A stretch of DNA of 22,322 bases from a virus. The DNA lies in the IMG/VR virus record IMGVR_UViG_3300046460_000278, positions 1 to 22,322 of that record. One strand, given 5' to 3'. Below are positions 2,677 through 15,283 of this stretch, piece by piece. The position numbers and the translations under genes were made by a program. The notes under the pieces were generated by a model that ran no database searches, had not been told where the DNA came from, and saw only the letters and a program-made list of their open reading frames with translations. Position 1 is the stretch's first letter; each line of letters opens with the position of its first letter.

Positions 2677-3726
2677 TTATTTTGACGGCCTGGCAATGGC
2701 GCCGACTCGGCGGTATACCCGCTCGGTGATGTCGCCTTTGGTGTGTCCAAGGAGCAGACTCGCCTCACCGACGTCAGTTATTTCTGACGCGGCTTTTGGC
2801 CGGATATCGCGGAACTGAAACTCTCCAATTCTGCCCGCCAGAAGCGTGTCGCCAGCTTCGATGGCTTCCAATCGCGCTGCCTCCCTGGCGACGTCCCAAC
2901 GCTTTCTCAGCATCGTCGCAGTCATTCGCTTACCGTGCCGGTTCACGATCAAATAGCTCGAGAGGTGGTGAGCATTGCGCTCCGTTATCTTCTTGATCAG
3001 TTGCCCCAGGGTATTTGCCAACCCGCCGGCATTGATCTGGATGCGAAGCTTCTTGTGGGTTTTGTTCTGCTGCACCATCAGATAGCCCCCCTCAACGTCA
3101 TCCTTTCGCATAACCAGGACATCTGCCGGCCGCTGACCGGTTAGGTAGGCCAGGTCCATCGCGTCTTTCAGCTCTTGAGTTGCCTTCTTGTAAACCGCAT
3201 CCCAAACAACATCATTCGCGTAATAGTCTCTTGGCGTTTCCTTGTTCTTGCGCACGCCCTGGCAAGGATTTTCTTTGGTTGTCAGACCCCACTCCCGGGC
3301 CATGTTGAACACATGGGAGAGGATGGCGATCTCACGATTCGCCCGCACCTTTGCCGTTCGTGCATCACGGTAACCGGCGATCGTTGCTGGCGTGATTGAG
3401 TCGATAGGGGCGCTGTCGAACATAGGGCGCAGTTGCTTGATCTCTGCCAAGTTGTCCTTCTGAGTGCGCGCAGCTTTCTTGGGAACGATGTCGCGGATGT
3501 ATCGATCGAAGATACCCTTCATTGTGCGCAGATCGAGCGGCTTATCCTTGGCTTCAAGTTCCGCCCATTTGATCCTGGCCAAGTCCAAATCCTTGCCGAG
3601 GGGGATCGCTTTGCCGGTCAGGTCCAGGTAGTAATAGGCGATCCAATCCTTTCCGCTTTTTCGTTGCCGCGTCCACTGGTACATGCGGGGCGGCAAGTTG
3701 CGTGTTTCGGCCTTGCGGGGTCGCAT
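2677..3726 (-). CDS. int: Prophage integrase (tyrosine recombinase)
   Basis: This 349-residue site-specific recombinase catalyses integration and, with an accessory factor, excision at the adjacent tRNA-Ser site. Residues 1-60 form an arm-binding region, about 65-165 a SAM-like core-binding domain, and about 170-349 the catalytic domain. Visible active-site residues are R199 (LTGQRPAD), K222, R309 (FRDIRPK), H328 (LGHTK) and the nucleophile Y338 (ERVYRR). The usual His of the HxxR box is Arg306, a variation I associate with some phage integrases. The gene reads toward attL and starts one base after the stop of the DUF4224 gene, so the two are coupled. Length and residues indicate an active enzyme. 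Confidence 0.93.
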   Translation of the reverse strand: MRPRKAETRNLPPRMYQWTRQRKSGKDWIAYYYLDLTGKAIPLGKDLDLARIKWAELEAKDKPLDLRTMKGIFDRYIRDIVPKKAARTQKDNLAEIKQLRPMFDSAPIDSITPATIAGYRDARTAKVRANREIAILSHVFNMAREWGLTTKENPCQGVRKNKETPRDYYANDVVWDAVYKKATQELKDAMDLAYLTGQRPADVLVMRKDDVEGGYLMVQQNKTHKKLRIQINAGGLANTLGQLIKKITERNAHHLSSYLIVNRHGKRMTATMLRKRWDVAREAARLEAIEAGDTLLAGRIGEFQFRDIRPKAASEITDVGEASLLLGHTKGDITERVYRRVGAIARPSK

Positions 3727-4368: not shown

Positions 4369-5664
4369 ATGCACTACTTTAGAAATTTTAAAAATTATTC
4401 AAACGCTCAGATAGACCTGTTCTCTAGTTTTACACTGCTAATCGGAAAGAATGGTAGCGGAAAGTCTAACCTGATCGAAGGTGTGGAACTTCTTGCCGCG
4501 CTTGCTGAAGGACGCCCGCTCCATGAGATGGTCGAGGGAAAAGGCTATGGTGCTAATGCATCTGCAGTGCGTGGCGGCATCCATAGTTGTGTTAAATTTG
4601 GAGAGAAAAATTTCTCTCTAGGGTTTTCAGGTAGTTATAAGTTTGAAGGAAAGGCACAATCATTTGATTATTGTATAACTATCGGAGTTGATCCGTATCC
4701 TTATGTTGTGGGTGAGCATCTGATTGTTGGCTCGAGGAAGATATTTCTGGCGGAGCCTGATGGAGTATCTCGTGACGGCTTGTTGAATGTGCAGTTTGAT
4801 AACTTTGCGCGCGGCGGAAAAAAACCGCAGAAAAAAATATTCGGCGACCGGTCTATAATTTCTCGCTATGAAGAGCTTGTCGAGGCTAGTGAGGCGGGCG
4901 ATAAAGATAGGAAGCTAAAAGCTGTAAAAATGGTAGCGACAATAAAGCGTTATTTGCAATCATCGTTTGTATTTGATCCTAGTCCTAAATTAATGCGCGA
5001 TTACGTTAGGATCGGTCAAAACGTGTTGCTCAAAGATGGATCAAATATTTCCGCTGTACTTTACTCAATGAGGTCGGAATCTGGGGAACTGTCACATCTG
5101 GATAATGTCCTTAATGTGATTCGACAGATTCCGGAAGAACCGTTTCTGGAATTTGATTTTGTAACAACTTCTCGGCATGATGTTTTATTAACACTGATGT
5201 CTGGAGTTAATTCTGTTGATGCTAGGTTGATTTCGGACGGAACTCTGAGGGCGATGGCTGTAATAGCGGCACTTGAATCAATTGGTGAAGGTTCTCGAGT
5301 TGTTATTGAAGAATTTGATAATGGACTACATCCGAGTCGCGCTGCTGTTTTAATTGAGGCTATAGGGGAGGTGGTTGCAAGAAAAAAACTCAACATATTA
5401 CTTTCTACTCATAATCCGGCTAGTTTAAATTCTTTGTCGAGTGAATGGCTTGCAAAGGTCCATGTTTGTTATTGGGATCAAGAGGCTAATTCTTCTAAAT
5501 TGATACGTTTGCTCGACGTCCCAGACGTCGACTCGTTGCTTGAGTCAAAGGGTGGTTTGGGTGATTTGGTAACTCGCTCCGTCTTTGAAAAACATTTGGC
5601 TCCACGCTTTGAGGAAGCAAAGAAAAAAGTAGCCACGGACTGGCTGAGCAGGTTGGGTTCATGA
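4369..5664 (+). CDS. AAA_21-type (ABC/OLD-like) ATPase, putative defence sensor
   Basis: This is a 431-residue SMC/ABC-like P-loop ATPase. It has an N-terminal FRNFKNYSNAQIDL strand, Walker A GKNGSGKS at 26-33, a signature-like ISDGTLRAMAV at 288-298, Walker B VVIEEFDNGLHP at 311-321 and a switch His in LLSTHNP (H348). A variable middle (about 90-280) replaces the SMC coiled coil. The pattern fits the AAA_15/AAA_21 group used as sensors or motors in PARIS, Septu, OLD and retron-linked systems (established for those families). The ATG is the only start after an in-frame stop at 4351 and has a G-rich stretch upstream. The gene is AT-rich relative to its neighbours, reads against the surrounding early operon, and overlaps the PIN gene by 4 bases. 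Its role in phage defence is inferred. Confidence 0.85.
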   Translation: MHYFRNFKNYSNAQIDLFSSFTLLIGKNGSGKSNLIEGVELLAALAEGRPLHEMVEGKGYGANASAVRGGIHSCVKFGEKNFSLGFSGSYKFEGKAQSFDYCITIGVDPYPYVVGEHLIVGSRKIFLAEPDGVSRDGLLNVQFDNFARGGKKPQKKIFGDRSIISRYEELVEASEAGDKDRKLKAVKMVATIKRYLQSSFVFDPSPKLMRDYVRIGQNVLLKDGSNISAVLYSMRSESGELSHLDNVLNVIRQIPEEPFLEFDFVTTSRHDVLLTLMSGVNSVDARLISDGTLRAMAVIAALESIGEGSRVVIEEFDNGLHPSRAAVLIEAIGEVVARKKLNILLSTHNPASLNSLSSEWLAKVHVCYWDQEANSSKLIRLLDVPDVDSLLESKGGLGDLVTRSVFEKHLAPRFEEAKKKVATDWLSRLGS

Positions 5665-6173
5665 GCAAAATTATTCTTCTTGATACTAGTTATCTTCTCG
5701 AGCTATTTAGAGTGCCACACGATTCAGTTGAAGGGCATCATCTGGTCGCAAAAGAGTTAATGACCGAAGCAATTGAGCTTGGGTATGATTTGTACTGCAC
5801 TCTTGGTGTTCTCTACGAGGTTGCGAATCATATCGTGGATGTGAAAAATGTCGAAGTGCAAAGAAGGTTGGCTAGGGAATTTCAAGAGATGGTGACTCTT
5901 GCATGGGAGGAAAACAGTCCGTTTTCAATAGTTCCCAACTCTAGTTCCGCAGAAATTTTGGCGGAGTTTGCCTCGCTTCCTGAACTCTGTGTTAAGTATA
6001 AAGATACTCTTCGGCAAGGTCTGAGTTTGGTGGACTGTACCATCATCGAAGTTGCGTCAAAAATTAAAGTCAACTATGCCGCACGGAAACGGAAATGGGC
6101 GGCGCATATTTGGACTCGACATGGAGAGCTTAAGGCGCTTGAGCCTGACAGATTTCATCATCCCCATTTTTGA
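5661..6173 (+). CDS. PIN-domain nuclease, partner/effector of the ATPase
   Basis: This 170-residue protein has the PIN layout: LLDTSYLLEL at the N-terminus (D8), LYEVANHIV (E53), GLSLVDCTIIEVA (D125, E130) and a terminal strand HIWTRHGELKALEPD. PIN domains are metal-dependent RNases, often toxins. The fourth acidic position, usually Asp in the final T-x-D motif, is His154 here, so activity may be altered or use E130. The ATG overlaps the ATPase stop (ATGA), which implies translational coupling and fixed stoichiometry. There is no small antitoxin beside it, so the ATPase is the likely controller. An ATPase-controlled RNase causing abortive infection is my preferred inference; a conventional VapC toxin is less likely. 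Confidence 0.75.
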   Translation: MSKIILLDTSYLLELFRVPHDSVEGHHLVAKELMTEAIELGYDLYCTLGVLYEVANHIVDVKNVEVQRRLAREFQEMVTLAWEENSPFSIVPNSSSAEILAEFASLPELCVKYKDTLRQGLSLVDCTIIEVASKIKVNYAARKRKWAAHIWTRHGELKALEPDRFHHPHF

Positions 6174-7652: not shown

Positions 7653-7678
7653 GTAACCGGCGGTTTAATTGCCGTCAA
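7650..7678 (-). promoter_or_regulatory. PL-like leftward early promoter
   Basis: On the minus strand, TTGACG (7678-7673) is followed after exactly 17 bases by TACCGT (7655-7650). The -35 is near consensus and the -10 is weak. Operator sites at 7653-7667 and 7677-7691 overlap the two boxes, so bound repressor would block RNA polymerase as at lambda PL. It would drive the LuxR-type gene and, originally, everything leftward to int. Confidence 0.55.
7653..7667. promoter_or_regulatory. Operator OL1 (repressor site)
   Basis: GTAACCGGCGGTTTA is a 15-bp near-palindrome matching the consensus TTAACCGNCGGTTAA of the three operators between cI and cro. Its centre (7660) is 24 bp from the second site. 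Confidence 0.75.
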
Positions 7679-7691
7679 TACCGCCGGTTAA
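7677..7691. promoter_or_regulatory. Operator OL2 (repressor site)
   Basis: AATACCGCCGGTTAA is a 15-bp near-palindrome of the same family, overlapping the -35 box of the PL-like promoter. CI and Cro are the expected ligands because the same motif controls their own promoter region. Confidence 0.75.
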
Positions 7692-7729
7692 TTTCTTTTC
7701 AGAAAGAGTAGGTTATGCTTCCCCTTTGG

Positions 7730-7745
7730 CTGTATATATGTACAG
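7730..7745. promoter_or_regulatory. LexA box
   Basis: CTGTATATATGTACAG fits the gammaproteobacterial SOS box CTGT-N8-ACAG, with an alternating AT core; 14 of its 16 bases are palindromic. It lies 17 bp before the DUF1654 start codon, where bound LexA would block transcription or promoter clearance. Confidence 0.8.
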
Positions 7746-7762
7746 TGCATTGGGAATGGATA

Positions 7763-8071
7763 ATGAGCAAACCAAGCAGGAAAAATCAGGATAAGAAGGT
7801 TGGGGTCAGCGGAATAGAGCGCCTGGGCCTTCGGGTTTCGGAAATGATTAACCATCCCGTCGCACAAATTCAGCGCTGGGTGACCATCCACCGATTGGAT
7901 ACCGATGGCGATCGGGAGTGGGACGAGGTGATGGGCTTGCTTTCCGAGACGGACGGCATAAACATGACGTTTAACGACGATGAGTCGGTTACGCTGAAGT
8001 GGGAGGCGAGCGCCGAAGAGGATCGGCCGATAGAGGTGGTCGAGCAAATAGAAGAGGCTGCGCCTTTCTGA
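7763..8071 (+). CDS. DUF1654 protein, probably SOS-controlled
   Basis: The protein has 102 residues. Residues about 13-78 match DUF1654 as I remember it: ERLGLRVSEMINHPVAQIQR, WVTIHRLDTDGD, WDEVMGLLSE and DDESVTLKWE. DUF1654 proteins are small, largely confined to Pseudomonas and its phages, and of unknown function. The start at 7763 is preferred over an ATG at 7715 because TGGGA lies 8 bases upstream and the 7715 start would place the LexA box inside the coding region. The N-terminus is basic and the C-terminal tail acidic. With the LexA box and operators OL1/OL2 upstream, it is likely induced by DNA damage. A role in prophage induction is an attractive inference without direct evidence. Confidence 0.85.
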   Translation: MSKPSRKNQDKKVGVSGIERLGLRVSEMINHPVAQIQRWVTIHRLDTDGDREWDEVMGLLSETDGINMTFNDDESVTLKWEASAEEDRPIEVVEQIEEAAPF

Positions 8072-8073
8072 TA

Positions 8074-8200
8074 GTGCTATTCGCGCTTGTGCGCTGCACC
8101 AGATGCGGGTCGTTACGAAGGGCTCTGGTGCGGGCGTTGCCTACGAAGGGGATCGCAGGCGCACCTAAGGAACAAAGTAAATTTGATCTTGATTAATTGA
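8074..8200 (+). pseudogene. Frameshifted small zinc-ribbon ORF
   Basis: Immediately after DUF1654, one frame encodes LFALVRCTRCGS (CxxC; Cys codons at 8095 and 8104) and a second frame, one base off, encodes YEGLWCGRCLRRGSQAHL (CxxC; Cys codons at 8129 and 8138), ending with a stop at 8198-8200. Adding one base near 8113 would restore a CxxC-x(n)-CxxC zinc-ribbon protein of about 40 residues. The end overlaps the 3' end of the opposing GHKL gene, so the tail may not be original. It could be a true pseudogene or a sequencing error. Confidence 0.4.
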
Positions 8201-10253
8201 CGGTGGAAGACAATTCTGAAACAAGCTCCGATTGGGTGAGGCTCGACAGGTCTTTTCTTTGTGTCTTCAACCTTTCCAACAGAAAGTCACTTGTTAATTT
8301 GAACTCATCGAATATCCTTGGCCAAGTCTTGATGTAGGTTTTTATCTTGTCAGTGTTGTTGACTATTCCTGGCTCACCATGAATTTTGTTTGATTCAATT
8401 CGCTGGTGGATATTAAATGCTTCATCTGAGATGTTTCGACCGATTAAAAGCAGTTCAAATTTTGTAAGATCACTATTAAATGCTGGATATTTACTTAAAA
8501 TTGAAGCGTATCGATCTAGTTGTTGAAGGTGCTTGTCGTTAAGCGATACACCAGGGCGCTTAATTTCGACAATGACGCATCGAAAGTATTGTCTTCCATG
8601 AGAATCGAATTGCGGCTGCCTACGGATTAGCAATAAGTCAACCTGTTTGTTTGCTCCATCAATCGTGACGCCATCAGCCAAATCGCCGACATCGATGCCG
8701 CCGATATCTTTGATTTCTGATCTAAGGTTTTCAGCTATTTTAGTGAAGCTGTCTTCTTCGGCGCCTAGGATTGCGTAAGAAGCGCCGAATAACCAGGTAT
8801 TATTCTCGATTATACCTTGTAGGTGTGGTGTTTCTTTTACGTCCTTATAGTGGACATTCATAATTTCTTCAATTTGAGCTATTGCATGCTCTCGCTTTTG
8901 CAATACTTCGATCGTGTTGATTATGTTTTCGAGTTTTGTTTGTTTCAACTGAGTGGCAAATTTTTTCATAGCGGATGCATCCAAGTCTAGAATGCTTTCA
9001 ATTACATCGAGTATTCCGCTATTTTCGTTGGATACAGACAGTCTGTCCAGTAATCTTATTATTACTTTGCGCTGTTTCTTATTGCTATTAATTAGTAAGG
9101 TTGGTTCTTTTATGATTATGTGTCGAACGATATCTTTAACATAGCTAAGCCGCCATTCCCGCTCCGCCGGTCCAAGCTCGGAGTGATCAGGAAAGTCTCC
9201 TTCGATCTCATACTTCTTAACCTGCTCGTCAGCCTGTTCCACTAGAAATTCAGCATAATTTTTTGCAATCATGCTTTTTACTTCCTTTTCCAGCATGCGA
9301 CCTGCTTTGCTGGATAGGAATGAGTCGAATGGCTCGCTAAGAGCTTCGCTGCCTGGCGTATAGCGGTCAAATATTTCCGATGTAACGTATATGCTTATAT
9401 AATATTCAGGCTTATTATTTCCAGAGCTATGCTTCTTGTGAAGGACTCGCCCGTCTTGGTTTGCGAAATATGTCCAGGATTTATCGTTGCCAGGCTTTTC
9501 GTACCATCGGATCAGTTTAATATCAAAATTTTTGTTTTCTATTGTTACAGGGTGGGCAAATTCTAGGTGACGCGGAGGTTCAATCAATTTTTCGTCTAAC
9601 CAAAGCCGTCTTTGCGGCTTTAGGATAAAGTGAGCTCCGAACTCTTTGCTAAAATCCCTTGCAAGTTCCGAGCTCGGGGGTAGATTTTTGGCGAATTCAA
9701 GGAGCTCTACACATGTGCCTTTTTCGGATCCGGAAAGCAGCGCGTGAGTCGATCCCGGCAAAGCATTTTTTCCGGTAACTTTGCTTAGGTTAGAGCTGCT
9801 TATAGAAATAATAGCGTCTTCGCCCTGGTGTCGTGTATACCATGTGGCTAGATTGCATATTTTACTGAAGCTAAGTCTACCTCTACCATGTGACCCATGA
9901 GTGTCATATGAGGTGACTTTTAAAGAGTCGTTGAAACGCTTAAAGTTATTTGTGGACTTTCGGAACTCGATACCATTCCCGTCGTCCAGGATGGTCACAG
10001 ATTCAGTTCCATCTGCAGCAGTTTCGTGAATCGAAATCCGTACTTCAGTTGCATCAGCATCGAACCCATTCCAGATTAACTCTGCAATCGCCTGCCATGG
10101 CTTTACGTTTTTAAAGTGTTTTGCTATACCGTCATGGGTAATAGTGTTTGAGCCAGAGAAATCATATAAGGAAAATTCCGTTTCCACGACGCTACTCCAA
10201 AGTTCAGAAAGGGATGTGTTAATAGTTATGTTTAAAGCAGGTGAGCATTCCAC
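8193..10253 (-). CDS. GHKL ATPase fused to PD-(D/E)XK (Shedu-like) nuclease
   Basis: This is a 686-residue two-part protein. The N-terminal GHKL (Hsp90/MutL/MORC-type) ATPase shows an N box ELIWNGFDADA (E58, N62, D65), DDGNG at 90-94 and SHGRGRLS at 121-128. A linker of about 250 residues follows, with a likely coiled coil near 430-465. The C-terminus looks like a DUF4263-type PD-(D/E)XK nuclease: IIENNTWLFG (481-490), QVDLLLI (D539), VIVEIKRP (E563, K565) and QQLDRY (577-582). The listed start is GTG at 10253, overlapping the repressor gene by 22 bases. An alternative GTG at 10187 has GGAG 7 bases upstream and keeps every motif. The gene is AT-rich and probably co-transcribed with the repressor. 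Anti-phage function is inferred. Confidence 0.85.
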   Translation of the reverse strand: MECSPALNITINTSLSELWSSVVETEFSLYDFSGSNTITHDGIAKHFKNVKPWQAIAELIWNGFDADATEVRISIHETAADGTESVTILDDGNGIEFRKSTNNFKRFNDSLKVTSYDTHGSHGRGRLSFSKICNLATWYTRHQGEDAIISISSSNLSKVTGKNALPGSTHALLSGSEKGTCVELLEFAKNLPPSSELARDFSKEFGAHFILKPQRRLWLDEKLIEPPRHLEFAHPVTIENKNFDIKLIRWYEKPGNDKSWTYFANQDGRVLHKKHSSGNNKPEYYISIYVTSEIFDRYTPGSEALSEPFDSFLSSKAGRMLEKEVKSMIAKNYAEFLVEQADEQVKKYEIEGDFPDHSELGPAEREWRLSYVKDIVRHIIIKEPTLLINSNKKQRKVIIRLLDRLSVSNENSGILDVIESILDLDASAMKKFATQLKQTKLENIINTIEVLQKREHAIAQIEEIMNVHYKDVKETPHLQGIIENNTWLFGASYAILGAEEDSFTKIAENLRSEIKDIGGIDVGDLADGVTIDGANKQVDLLLIRRQPQFDSHGRQYFRCVIVEIKRPGVSLNDKHLQQLDRYASILSKYPAFNSDLTKFELLLIGRNISDEAFNIHQRIESNKIHGEPGIVNNTDKIKTYIKTWPRIFDEFKLTSDFLLERLKTQRKDLSSLTQSELVSELSSTVN

Positions 10254-11098
10254 ACCAGCAGAACCCGAGCTTGAATGAAGGTTTCATCCGCTCTAATCGT
10301 CTCGGGAGGGTGCTTGGTGTTGTCAGAAATCATTTTTAACCGTTCCTCACCCATCCACTGGAGACGCTTGATGTAGAGGTGCCCCTCCCAAGAAAACATG
10401 TAGATCCCATCCCCAGTGAACTCGCGAATGCTGACGTCGACGAGGAGCGGGTCGCGATGCTTAATCGTTGGCGCCATCGACTGTCCCCAACCTGTCACCA
10501 TCTTAAGGTGAAAGTGTTCCTTGAACTCAACCCCCATCTCACGCAGATGTTGGGGGCTGACACGAACATCCTGAAGCATTTCTGGGTAATCGTGTGGTAT
10601 CTGCCCACCACCCATGGCTGCGCGGACGTCGTAATGTGCGATCCATACTTCGTCACCCATCGCACCGGGGCGGTAGTAATCCAGCTCTATGACACCGCCT
10701 CCGTCATCCGCTTCAGCGGCTGATAGTAACCGCCGACGTGCCTCTTCAGAGAGTCCTTTTCCTTGCTTGGCTAGCATGTTTCGGACGATATCCGCGGCGG
10801 AAGTCCCAAGTTTTTCTGTGCTTTCAGAAACGTTGGTTAGTCCGTGGATTTCTTTAGCCAATCTCTTACTGAATTTTTCGACAGGTACGCCTAGCTGACG
10901 GGAGAGAACGGCAGCGAATTTCGCATTCAAGGGGTTGGTGCCATTCAAATACATCGCAACTGCGGCCGCGGAAATATCCGCAGCCTCCGCAAGGCTCGCC
11001 TGCGTGATCCCGAGAGTATTTTTCTTCGACACGAACAGAGCTTTCGCGGCATCGCACTCAGCCTTCAGCTCCGGTGATAACTCTTTCTTTTTCGTCAT
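10232..11098 (-). CDS. cI: CI-type phage repressor, S24 peptidase fold
   Basis: The protein has 288 residues. An HTH lies at about 30-62 (ITQASLAEAADISAAAVAMY, LNGTNPLNAKFA). The C-terminal LexA/S24 domain at about 150-288 has the catalytic Ser207 in GWGQSMAPTIK and Lys244 in LYIKRLQ. The usual Ala-Gly or Cys-Gly cleavage pair is not evident; AAMGGG (160-165) sits near the expected place, so self-cleavage is uncertain. It reads leftward from an operator cluster and is divergent from cro, the lambda arrangement. There is little leader and no clear ribosome binding site before the ATG, as with lambda cI from PRM. It should keep the prophage silent by binding OR and OL. Confidence 0.92.
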   Translation of the reverse strand: MTKKKELSPELKAECDAAKALFVSKKNTLGITQASLAEAADISAAAVAMYLNGTNPLNAKFAAVLSRQLGVPVEKFSKRLAKEIHGLTNVSESTEKLGTSAADIVRNMLAKQGKGLSEEARRRLLSAAEADDGGGVIELDYYRPGAMGDEVWIAHYDVRAAMGGGQIPHDYPEMLQDVRVSPQHLREMGVEFKEHFHLKMVTGWGQSMAPTIKHRDPLLVDVSIREFTGDGIYMFSWEGHLYIKRLQWMGEERLKMISDNTKHPPETIRADETFIQARVLLVWNAHLL

Positions 11099-11107
11099 TC
11101 GTGAAAT

Positions 11108-11122
11108 TTAACCGTTGGTTAA
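11108..11122. promoter_or_regulatory. Operator OR site nearest cI
   Basis: TTAACCGTTGGTTAA is a 15-bp palindrome, perfect in its outer six bases. It lies 9 bp from the cI start codon, where binding would block the repressor's own promoter (the OR3-like role in lambda). Confidence 0.78.
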
Positions 11123-11132
11123 CTTATTTGCG

Positions 11133-11147
11133 GCAACCGGCGGTATT
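11133..11147. promoter_or_regulatory. Middle OR operator
   Basis: GCAACCGGCGGTATT is the most degenerate of the three sites. Its centre is 25 bp from the cI-side site and 24 bp from the cro-side site, spacing that suits cooperative binding on nearly the same face of the helix. Confidence 0.7.
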
Positions 11148-11174
11148 GCTAAGAAGCTAACCGCCGGTTAATAT
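11146..11174 (+). promoter_or_regulatory. PR promoter for cro and the replication genes
   Basis: TTGCTA (11146-11151), a 17-base spacer and TAATAT (11169-11174) make a good sigma-70 promoter. The operator at 11157-11171 fills the spacer and enters the -10. The transcript would start near 11181, about 27 bases before cro. Confidence 0.65.
11157..11171. promoter_or_regulatory. Operator OR site nearest cro
   Basis: CTAACCGCCGGTTAA is a 15-bp near-perfect palindrome lying over the PR promoter. Repressor here would shut off cro and replication (the OR1-like role). Confidence 0.78.
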
Positions 11175-13749: not shown

Positions 13750-13958
13750 TGGACTCTCAGCGACTCGCTGTTCCAAATCCGGCCACCTACCGCTTCGCGG
13801 TGTTCTGCTGCTCTTTCAAGATGGAGTTGGGTAGCACCCCGGACCATGCCTTGGCCCTGTTCGCCGACGAGGCCATGGCCAAGCGTTATGGTGCGTGGAT
13901 GTGGCCTTCAACGTTTGAGGTAGTGGACCGTCTCGCCCAACCGGAGGCGACCGATTGA
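13749..13958 (+). CDS. Small hypothetical protein between helicase and recombinase
   Basis: This is a 69-residue protein with no recognised domain. The middle (FAVFCCSFKMELGSTPDHAL, ALFADEAMAKRYGAWMWP) looks like a compact alpha/beta fold with an aromatic-rich end. It begins on the last base of the helicase gene and ends within the start codon region of the recombinase gene, so it is embedded in a tightly coupled operon. The coding-like composition and both overlaps support translation. Function is unknown. Confidence 0.65.
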   Translation: MDSQRLAVPNPATYRFAVFCCSFKMELGSTPDHALALFADEAMAKRYGAWMWPSTFEVVDRLAQPEATD

Positions 13959-15283
13959 GCACCTTGATCAAGACCCTGACCGTGAAACTGTCAGACGCTG
14001 AGATTCAGCGCAACGCCAGGCTCGAGCATGTGCGTGACCTGCGTGATGCCAGTCACCCCGCGTTGCATTTCCGTTATGCGAAGAATCGCACGCGTGGCTC
14101 CTGGTATCTGCTGAATAAGCGTCAGTGGCACCGCATCGGCGGATTTCCCGACCTGAGCACCAAGCAGGTGGTTGCAGCGTTACCGGCAGTGCGTTTGCGA
14201 GTGGCGGCCGATGGTGCCGCCAGCGTTTCGGGTTGGGTAACCGTCGGCGAACTGCTGGACTGGTTTGGCGATCGCATGGCGCGCTCGCGCGCTCTGTCCG
14301 CCAAGCGCCGTTCCGCGAGCAAGTCAGCCATCAGTTGCCAGCTTAAGCCGCGCCTGGGTGATCTGCTGATTCGTGACGTCAACGCCCAGACCCTGGACAA
14401 GCTGCTGATGTGGCCGGCTCAGGCAGAGTTGTCGCTGTCGTACGTCCAGCAGTTGTACCGACTGCTCGCGGTGGCCTTTCGTCAGGCCCGTAAGCTCGAT
14501 CTGATTCCAGCCAACCCGATGGCGGAGCTCAAGTTCATCAACTTCACGACGGCGCGCATCCTGCCCAAGCCTGCCCGTCTGCGCGATGTCCAGGTGCCCG
14601 AATTGGTGGAGCAGTTGGCGGAGCGATTCGTGACTGCGCCGGGTGACGCCATGCTGGCCCTGATGATGCTGTGCCACGGGACCCGCATTGGCGAAACGCG
14701 TCAGTCGCGCTGGGCCGATATTGCGTTGCCTGAGCGTGAGTGGTACCTGCCGGCCGAGCACACCAAGAGCAAGACCGAGCTGCGGGTGCCACTGACCGAC
14801 CAAGTCTGCGCGTTGCTGCGCCGCTACCGAGAGCGGCAGACCGCGCAAGGTTACGAGGGACCGTTTCTGTTCCCGTCTCGCCGAGGCAAGCCGCTCAGCG
14901 ATAACCAGGCCAGTGCCGTGTTCACCCGATTGGGGCAGGGCGCCTGGACCAGTCACGACCTGCGCAAGGTGGCCCGTACCGCCTGGACTGACCTCGGCGT
15001 CGACGGGCATATCGGCGAGATGCTGTTGAACCACTCCCTGGGCAAGATCGCTTCAACCTACATCAATACCCAGGCCAAGGAGCAGCGTCGGCTAGCGCTG
15101 GTGAAGTGGCACAACTGGTTAGATGAGCGCGGCTTCAAGGCGATTCATGAGCAGACAGGCGCTAGATATGAGGATTCGCAAAACCTCGTAGACGCCTTGA
15201 ACGGCAGCGTCTGCGAGTCGATCCCGCAATTTGTTAAGGGCGAGGTTTTAAACCATGCAGAAAAGACCAATGCCTGGCTTTGA
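13955..15283 (+). CDS. Second tyrosine recombinase, in the replication module
   Basis: This is a 442-residue recombinase with all catalytic residues: R244 (CHGTRIGETR), K271/K273 (HTKSKTELR), H334 and R337 (SHDLRKVAR), H360 (LLNHSLG) and Y369 (STYIN). N-terminal residues 36-65 look like an arm-binding domain (FRYAKNRTRGSWYLLNKRQW) and about 95-190 like the core-binding domain. It differs clearly from the 349-residue integrase at the left end. The TTG start is supported by GGAGG 8 bases upstream. It sits between the replication genes and the antiterminator and would be expressed in lytic growth, so its job may be excision, dimer resolution or inversion rather than lysogenic integration. Confidence 0.9.
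   Translation: MSTLIKTLTVKLSDAEIQRNARLEHVRDLRDASHPALHFRYAKNRTRGSWYLLNKRQWHRIGGFPDLSTKQVVAALPAVRLRVAADGAASVSGWVTVGELLDWFGDRMARSRALSAKRRSASKSAISCQLKPRLGDLLIRDVNAQTLDKLLMWPAQAELSLSYVQQLYRLLAVAFRQARKLDLIPANPMAELKFINFTTARILPKPARLRDVQVPELVEQLAERFVTAPGDAMLALMMLCHGTRIGETRQSRWADIALPEREWYLPAEHTKSKTELRVPLTDQVCALLRRYRERQTAQGYEGPFLFPSRRGKPLSDNQASAVFTRLGQGAWTSHDLRKVARTAWTDLGVDGHIGEMLLNHSLGKIASTYINTQAKEQRRLALVKWHNWLDERGFKAIHEQTGARYEDSQNLVDALNGSVCESIPQFVKGEVLNHAEKTNAWL

Follow-up and report, generated by a model that had tools for sequence, protein, structure and literature searches.

What an ATPase joined to a nuclease does directly behind a phage repressor gene is the question raised by a 22,322-base IMG/VR virus record, a fragment taken here over its whole length (the window). 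The record carries a 686-codon ORF on the minus strand (8193–10253), and of 44 phage records that resemble it in DNA sequence, 43 carry Pseudomonas in their names. The original prediction, which came from the DNA sequence, read this ORF as a GHKL ATPase fused to a Shedu-like nuclease, placed it in the lysogenic transcript, and proposed superinfection exclusion as its role. The features of the locus are collected in Table 1.

Table 1. Features of the cI-to-OL region of the window (residue numbers follow the 686-codon frame)
Feature	Position	Strand	Basis or remark
GHKL-Shedu-like protein CDS, probable	8193..10187	-	664 aa, GTG start; mechanical ORF reaches 10253
Shine-Dalgarno GGAG	10195..10198	-	7 nt 5' of GTG 10187; relatives likewise at same place
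GHKL ATPase domain, residues 31–165	9759..10163	-	Pfam 3.3e-19, model, invariant motifs
S5-like transducer domain, residues 166–300	9354..9758	-	model and MORC matches; fastest-diverging, 38% identity
Coil and helical arm, residues 301–470	8844..9353	-	model
PD-(D/E)XK nuclease domain, DUF4263-related, residues 471–675	8229..8843	-	profile comparison, invariant residues, fold
cI repressor, HTH and Peptidase_S24	10232..11098	-	upstream of the GHKL-nuclease gene, same strand
OR, three ACCGNNGGT operator-like sites	11111..11168		at 11111, 11136, 11160, upstream of cI
OL, two ACCGNNGGT operator-like sites	7656..7688		at 7656, 7680, upstream of DUF1654
DUF1654 gene, convergent, closes cargo slot	7715..8071	+	Pfam 6.5e-25; likely start ATG 7763

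A Predicted MORC-Like ATPase Module and a Nuclease Domain in One Polypeptide

The N-terminal part of the protein was matched by the Pfam HATPase_c_3 model (residues 52–163; E 3.3e-19), and PHROG 6203, a family annotated as function unknown, covers nearly the whole protein (E 5.8e-84). The N box (ExxNxxDA), G1 (DxGxG), and G2 (GxxGxG) motifs of the GHKL superfamily are all present. In an alignment of 80 relatives, W61, N62, D65, D90, G92, G94, G120, G123, G125, and R126 are invariant and E58 is conserved in 79; toward the C terminus, the nuclease residues E474, D539, E563, K565, Q578, and Y582 are invariant in the 80 relatives. Conservation of these catalytic and motif positions lies far above chance and indicates that the motifs recognized in the original prediction are real. 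All of the GHKL and PD-(D/E)XK residues quoted there are found at their given numbers, but the conserved glutamine is Q578, not Q577.

An AlphaFold2 model was built on the 80-sequence alignment (mean pLDDT 82). The best PDB fold matches found by Foldseek were the ATPases of MORC4, MORC3, and MORC2, over ~330–390 columns (best E 2.8e-12), followed by Hsp90/TRAP1, gyrase B, a topoisomerase VI-type subunit, and MutL; the named matches in a viral structure library include RIIA proteins and topoisomerases. In the predicted model the GHKL domain is followed by an S5 transducer, as in MORC and paraMORC proteins, and the model supports the assignment of a MORC-like GHKL-S5 module. HMM and structure searches had been proposed as the check on the original prediction, and they recovered the GHKL domain through Pfam and the GHKL-S5 module through the MORC fold matches. 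Together with conservation across the 80 relatives and the profile comparison given below, they bear out a GHKL ATPase and a Shedu-like nuclease in a single chain.

The Gene Most Likely Starts Downstream of cI

In the mechanical 686-codon frame the ORF overlaps the end of cI by 22 nt, and the gene itself had been described as overlapping cI. That description applies to the ORF only. GTG 10187 corresponds to residue 23 of this frame and has GGAG 7 nt upstream, and it is exactly the codon at which relatives have a TTG start, 35 codons 5' of the catalytic Glu and behind the Shine-Dalgarno sequence GGGAGA or GAGGATGA. Residues 1–30 of the ORF are unconserved in the alignment of relatives (18% identity), and residues 1–27 are disordered in the AlphaFold2 model. 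Most likely, then, the gene starts at GTG 10187, 44 nt past the cI stop codon, encodes 664 aa, and does not overlap cI; in relatives the corresponding gap after the cI stop ranges from 27 to 367 nt. Translational coupling through the overlap was also considered and was dropped for a start at GTG 10187, which has a Shine-Dalgarno sequence of its own.

Within the clade of close viral relatives, 10 genes (L094, L095, L097–L100, L102, L103, L105, and L106) have an apparent TTG start behind a good Shine-Dalgarno sequence rather than an ATG start, and some of the members with TTG have an ATG two codons further on. The non-ATG start (TTG, or GTG in the window) may keep expression of the GHKL-nuclease low.

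Profile Comparison Supports a Relation of the Nuclease Domain to Shedu

Direct searches with PF14082/SduA_C found nothing within an E limit of 1 in this protein and 11 relatives. The only Pfam match to the nuclease part of this protein was HSDR_N_2 (E 0.012; up to 3.1e-6 in relatives), and the PADLOC SduA model matched a single relative, at E 0.02. A Shedu label taken straight from Pfam or PADLOC was therefore rejected for want of a usable match, and the relation is supported instead by profile comparison. The nuclease profile of the family was compared by hhalign with ten DUF4263 proteins from Vibrio genomes and aligned with E 2.6e-9 and probability 96 over 146 columns, which include a W-x-F-G stretch, the D, the ExK, and the Q. 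Control segments of the same family gave E 0.37 (GHKL) and 0.58 (middle), and the nuclease profile aligned with HSDR_N_2 at E 5.9e-5 over 50 columns. Because DUF4263 matched the nuclease profile while the controls were weak, a relation of this domain to Shedu DUF4263 is supported at the level of sequence profiles.

The nuclease domain was also modeled alone (pLDDT 80, pTM 0.79). The fold matches of this model were weak (best E 0.011) and comprised EcoO109I, FokI, MspJI, AspBHI, McrBC, and other PD-(D/E)XK proteins; the solved SduA structures (PDB 8ti8 and 8ti9) were absent from the top 50. A PD-(D/E)XK fold type is plausible from this model, and identification specifically as SduA by fold was set aside, as the matches were to generic PD-(D/E)XK restriction enzymes with weak E-values. 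Searching the sequences of PDB entries with a profile of the nuclease alignment returned no match. For the nuclease, the HMM and structure check thus yielded the profile match to DUF4263, but neither a direct SduA_C match nor a fold match specific to one family.

The Gene Lies between cI and OL, Where Lambda Carries rexAB

The gene shares the strand of cI and lies downstream of it, between cI and OL. The operator-like sequence ACCGNNGGT occurs ten times in the window against 2.0 expected (both strands counted), and nine of the ten sites fall within the OR and OL clusters. Among 66 related loci, operator-like sites were found upstream of cI in all 66 and upstream of DUF1654 in 61. Where relatives have other repressors, their operator-like repeats, judged by eye, change jointly at both ends, as with AAGCATGCTT in L095 and L106. 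With CI-type operators at both ends, the gene occupies the place that rexAB has in lambda, and the layout OR-cI-cargo-OL is the lambda arrangement. Lambdoid phages show a hotspot of mosaic variation at this site behind cI, and bstA lies downstream of cI there (PMC8585504).

Among the 13 closest viral homologues, 12 (L095–L106, some of them near duplicates) have cI just upstream and a convergent DUF1654 just downstream; the exception, L094, is preceded by a different ORF. The close viral homologues in the cI slot span at least three operator types. The placement in the lysogenic region that had been claimed for the gene is well founded, given CI-type operators that bracket cI, the gene, and DUF1654 and an order kept in 12 of the 13 homologues. 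No minus-strand terminator- or promoter-like site was detected in the stretch from the cI stop codon to the start of the gene, which is permissive evidence for co-transcription, and we infer that the gene would be transcribed together with cI from PRM in the silent prophage.

A LexA-type box (CTGTATATATGTACAG) is located at 7730–7745, upstream of the DUF1654 gene as read from its in-frame ATG at 7763, and is the sole CTGT-N8-ACAG sequence in the window. Such a box lies near the start of 36 of 78 related DUF1654 genes, against ~0.003 expected per locus, a frequency suggesting that DUF1654 may be controlled jointly by CI and the SOS response.

Relatives and Selection

The species-genome collection contains homologues in 373 stretches. 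A single-sequence scan of viral contigs gave no homologue; an alignment-based scan gave 45 viral loci. Plasmid homologues occur in Deinococcus, rhizobia, Phaeobacter and other marine Alphaproteobacteria, Psychrobacter, and Streptomyces. The raw neighborhood listing for several plasmid copies contains Drt2, restriction-modification (R-M) genes, an abortive-infection protein, toxin-antitoxin pairs, and a DNA methyltransferase, and in one case the plasmid homologue comes immediately after a type ISP R-M gene.

In the phylogenetic tree, the window protein and ten viral relatives form one clade (support 100), and the chromosomal genes next to it are from Aliiglaciecola, Desulfogranum, Aquincola, Bordetella, and Rhodoferax. 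Viral copies are also found elsewhere in the tree, which indicates several separate captures. Three further observations concern individual loci. The distant homologues in Pasteurella phages Pmp14 (L003) and Pmp3 (L013) lie near tail genes rather than in a cI slot. The Aliiglaciecola contig JAOMVH010000012.1 carries two different GHKL-nuclease genes (L014 and L015) ~15 kb apart. A close copy of the gene (73–74% identity; L104, 5918–7899) is split by a frameshift, reflecting either decay or an assembly error.

Between close relatives, dN/dS (omega) is mostly 0.02 to 0.05 across the domains; such low values mean that the gene has been kept functional, and it is under strong purifying selection. 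Identity differs by domain, being 38–43% in the S5 domain and coil, 64% in the ATPase, 73% in the helical arm, and 75% in the nuclease. Diversifying selection on the S5 domain and arm as a sensor of phage variants was considered and rejected, because omega is low (mostly 0.02–0.1) in every domain. The S5 domain and coil diverge faster, yet their omega is low, so weaker constraint is a sufficient explanation.

Cargo of the cI-to-DUF1654 Interval in Related Phages

The interval was sampled in 80 viral loci, near duplicates included, whose cI is closely related (71–88% identity). It could be measured in 68 of them, where it spans 54 to 4,490 bases and holds 188 ORFs of 60 aa or more, which group into 101 clusters by sequence; most of these ORFs lie on the cI strand, a strand that the choice of ORFs favored. 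The GHKL nuclease is present in three of the 80. When the slot proteins alone were scanned with PADLOC, seven of the 20 largest other cargo proteins gave matches at 1e-5 or better. The matches were to HEC-04 (5.1e-220), BstA (3.9e-119), PD-Lambda-5B (1.6e-110, with an adjoining AriA/OLD-like AAA ATPase), and PDC-S42 (5.5e-35), in addition to an RmrA/CapP-like protein and a weak PDC-M24B. With these PADLOC-matching cargo proteins, the slot has the appearance of a defense-rich hotspot.

No earlier description of a DUF1654-bounded slot was found in the literature searched. We see an even chance that the cI-to-OL interval of Pseudomonas lambda-like phages, with its convergent DUF1654, CI operators, and LexA-like box, is a large and little-explored reservoir of repressor-coupled anti-phage systems, of which the GHKL-Shedu protein would be one prophage-adapted member and most other cargo families would be undescribed defense genes. 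Bounded by cI on one side and by OL and DUF1654 on the other, the slot offers a defined place to look for repressor-coupled anti-phage genes in Pseudomonas, and since it also holds homologues of BstA and PD-Lambda-5B, its unknown genes are directly testable candidates.

Elsewhere in the same phage fragment, PADLOC reported PDC-M07, a complete two-gene candidate defense system on the plus strand (4369–5664 and 5661–6173, overlapping by 4 nt). PDC-M07A is an AAA_21/AAA_15 ATPase (2.9e-102) and PDC-M07B a PIN-domain protein (4.6e-32). The pair makes a second defense candidate in this phage, outside the immunity region. The fragment also has two different tyrosine-recombinase genes, at 2677–3726 (minus strand) and 13955–15283 (plus strand), the latter following a gene for a DnaB-like helicase and preceding an antiterminator Q-like gene.

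Probable Function

The gene is probably a prophage-borne anti-phage gene of the paraMORC3/GHKL-Shedu kind (Shedu type I-D, similar to VcSduA) with a restriction-type action. A predicted clamp and an immunity-family nuclease are encoded where related viruses carry anti-virus genes, and the product therefore most likely shields the host from competing viruses. A role in superinfection exclusion, as originally proposed, is plausible by analogy with VcSduA of Vibrio cholerae (PMC12137116) and with the slot-mates BstA and PD-Lambda-5B. The protein would be made from the PRM transcript that it shares with cI while the prophage is silent, and would dimerize through ATP-bound GHKL heads, as other GHKL proteins do and as its fold and its MORC and MutL relatives suggest. 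The prompt might be some feature of the phage DNA as it enters, or of a phage protein bound to it; ATP binding and hydrolysis could then close an S5/arm clamp on the DNA, and the closed clamp may license the C-terminal nuclease to cut the invading phage DNA, as VcSduA would lead one to expect. VcSduA behaves in this way at the phenotypic level, since it requires both its ATPase and its nuclease residues and protects to a similar extent at all phage doses.

Cell suicide is a less likely mode of defense. Here a triggered nuclease would attack host DNA or RNA, and the cell would die before the phage matures. The gene occupies the position of RexAB and BstA, both of which are abortive (PMC8585504), and nucleases of the PD-(D/E)XK type are able to target the host. 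The nearest architecture to have been tested nonetheless behaves otherwise: the growth curves of VcSduA, with protection at all MOIs, fit direct restriction rather than suicide (PMC12137116). Direct restriction is accordingly favored over abortive infection.

Two further accounts were weighed. It is quite improbable that the protein is a BbrUII/HgiDII-type restriction enzyme, modification-dependent or orphan, that acts together with a methyltransferase. The GHKL part does match NF050001 (9.3e-12), paraMORC genes are often found in R-M operons (PMC2292703), and there is the plasmid homologue next to the type ISP gene; but the NF050001 match is confined to residues 56–194 and scores 44 bits against a cut-off of 550, no methyltransferase was seen among the scanned ORFs of the window (itself a fragment), and the relatives in the cI slot stand alone. 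With neither a full-length match nor a partner methyltransferase among the ORFs of this fragment, classical type II R-M was likewise discarded as the best account. Least probable is a gene of the phage life cycle, MutL- or topoisomerase-like and serving DNA repair, replication, or lysogeny maintenance. The resemblance of the GHKL-S5 module to MutL, gyrase, and topoisomerase VI and the strong purifying selection would suit such a role, whereas its presence in no more than three of the 80 phages whose cI is close, the many homologues on plasmids and chromosomes, and the unrelated genes that fill the slot in sister phages do not. A restriction-type anti-phage gene thus remains the preferred reading.

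Comparison with Known Systems

The closest counterpart is VcSduA, which combines a GHKL ATPase and a DUF4263 nuclease in one chain and is classified as Shedu type I-D (PMC12137116). It restricts Drexlerviridae in Escherichia coli and phage X29 in V. cholerae, and the E27A and K557A substitutions abolish restriction (PMC12137116). Its authors note that proteins so organized were earlier named paraMORC3, and they too propose that a clamp delivers the nuclease or controls it (PMC12137116). Like VcSduA, the window protein is the product of a single gene and has an N-terminal GHKL domain, a clamp-like middle, and a C-terminal PD-(D/E)XK nuclease of DUF4263 type, the last assigned by profile comparison. 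By the residues named in PMC12137116, its equivalents of the catalytic E and K are E58 and K565, so that the components of Shedu type I-D are all present. The two differ in location, VcSduA being on a genomic island (V. cholerae WASA VSP-II) and the window gene behind a phage repressor. They differ also in the spacing from E to K, which is 530 in VcSduA and 507 here (499–516 among the 80 relatives), and the window protein may therefore belong to a different branch. Homologues in other Vibrio species retain all motifs, and none of the Vibrio-genome homologues has the E-to-K spacing of VcSduA.

The paraMORC3 family was defined by a GHKL domain, an S5 domain, and a C-terminal RE-fold domain with E-D-ExK (PMC2292703). 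This extra domain and its residues, here E474, D539, and E563xK565, are found in the window protein and are invariant in the 80 sequences, and the family resembles it further in being often a standalone gene with a patchy spread. The description of paraMORC3 (Iyer, Abhiman, and Aravind 2008, PMC2292703) drew on genomes of bacteria and archaea; the window protein belongs to a clade found in phage immunity regions. With classical Shedu SduA (DUF4263; PDB 8ti8 and 8ti9) the protein shares a related C-terminal nuclease core, as the profile comparison suggests, but the N-terminal part is a different one, a direct Pfam match is missing, and SduA was unranked in the fold search. BbrUII/HgiDII (NF050001) has a related GHKL domain, but the similarity is confined to the ATPase region and far under the cut-off, and no methyltransferase partner was seen.

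In its position the gene resembles the lambda rexAB and BstA loci, being right behind cI and expected to share the repressor promoter (PMC8585504); unlike them, it encodes an unrelated protein and has a convergent DUF1654 gene and OL as its far border, in Pseudomonas phages. The architecture itself is already known, since it matches paraMORC3 (2008) and VcSduA (2025), the latter phage-restricting. What the present locus adds is position: a recently validated GHKL-Shedu defense architecture is now tied to the lysogeny control of a prophage, in a repressor-coupled slot of Pseudomonas phages that looks productive for defense-gene searches.
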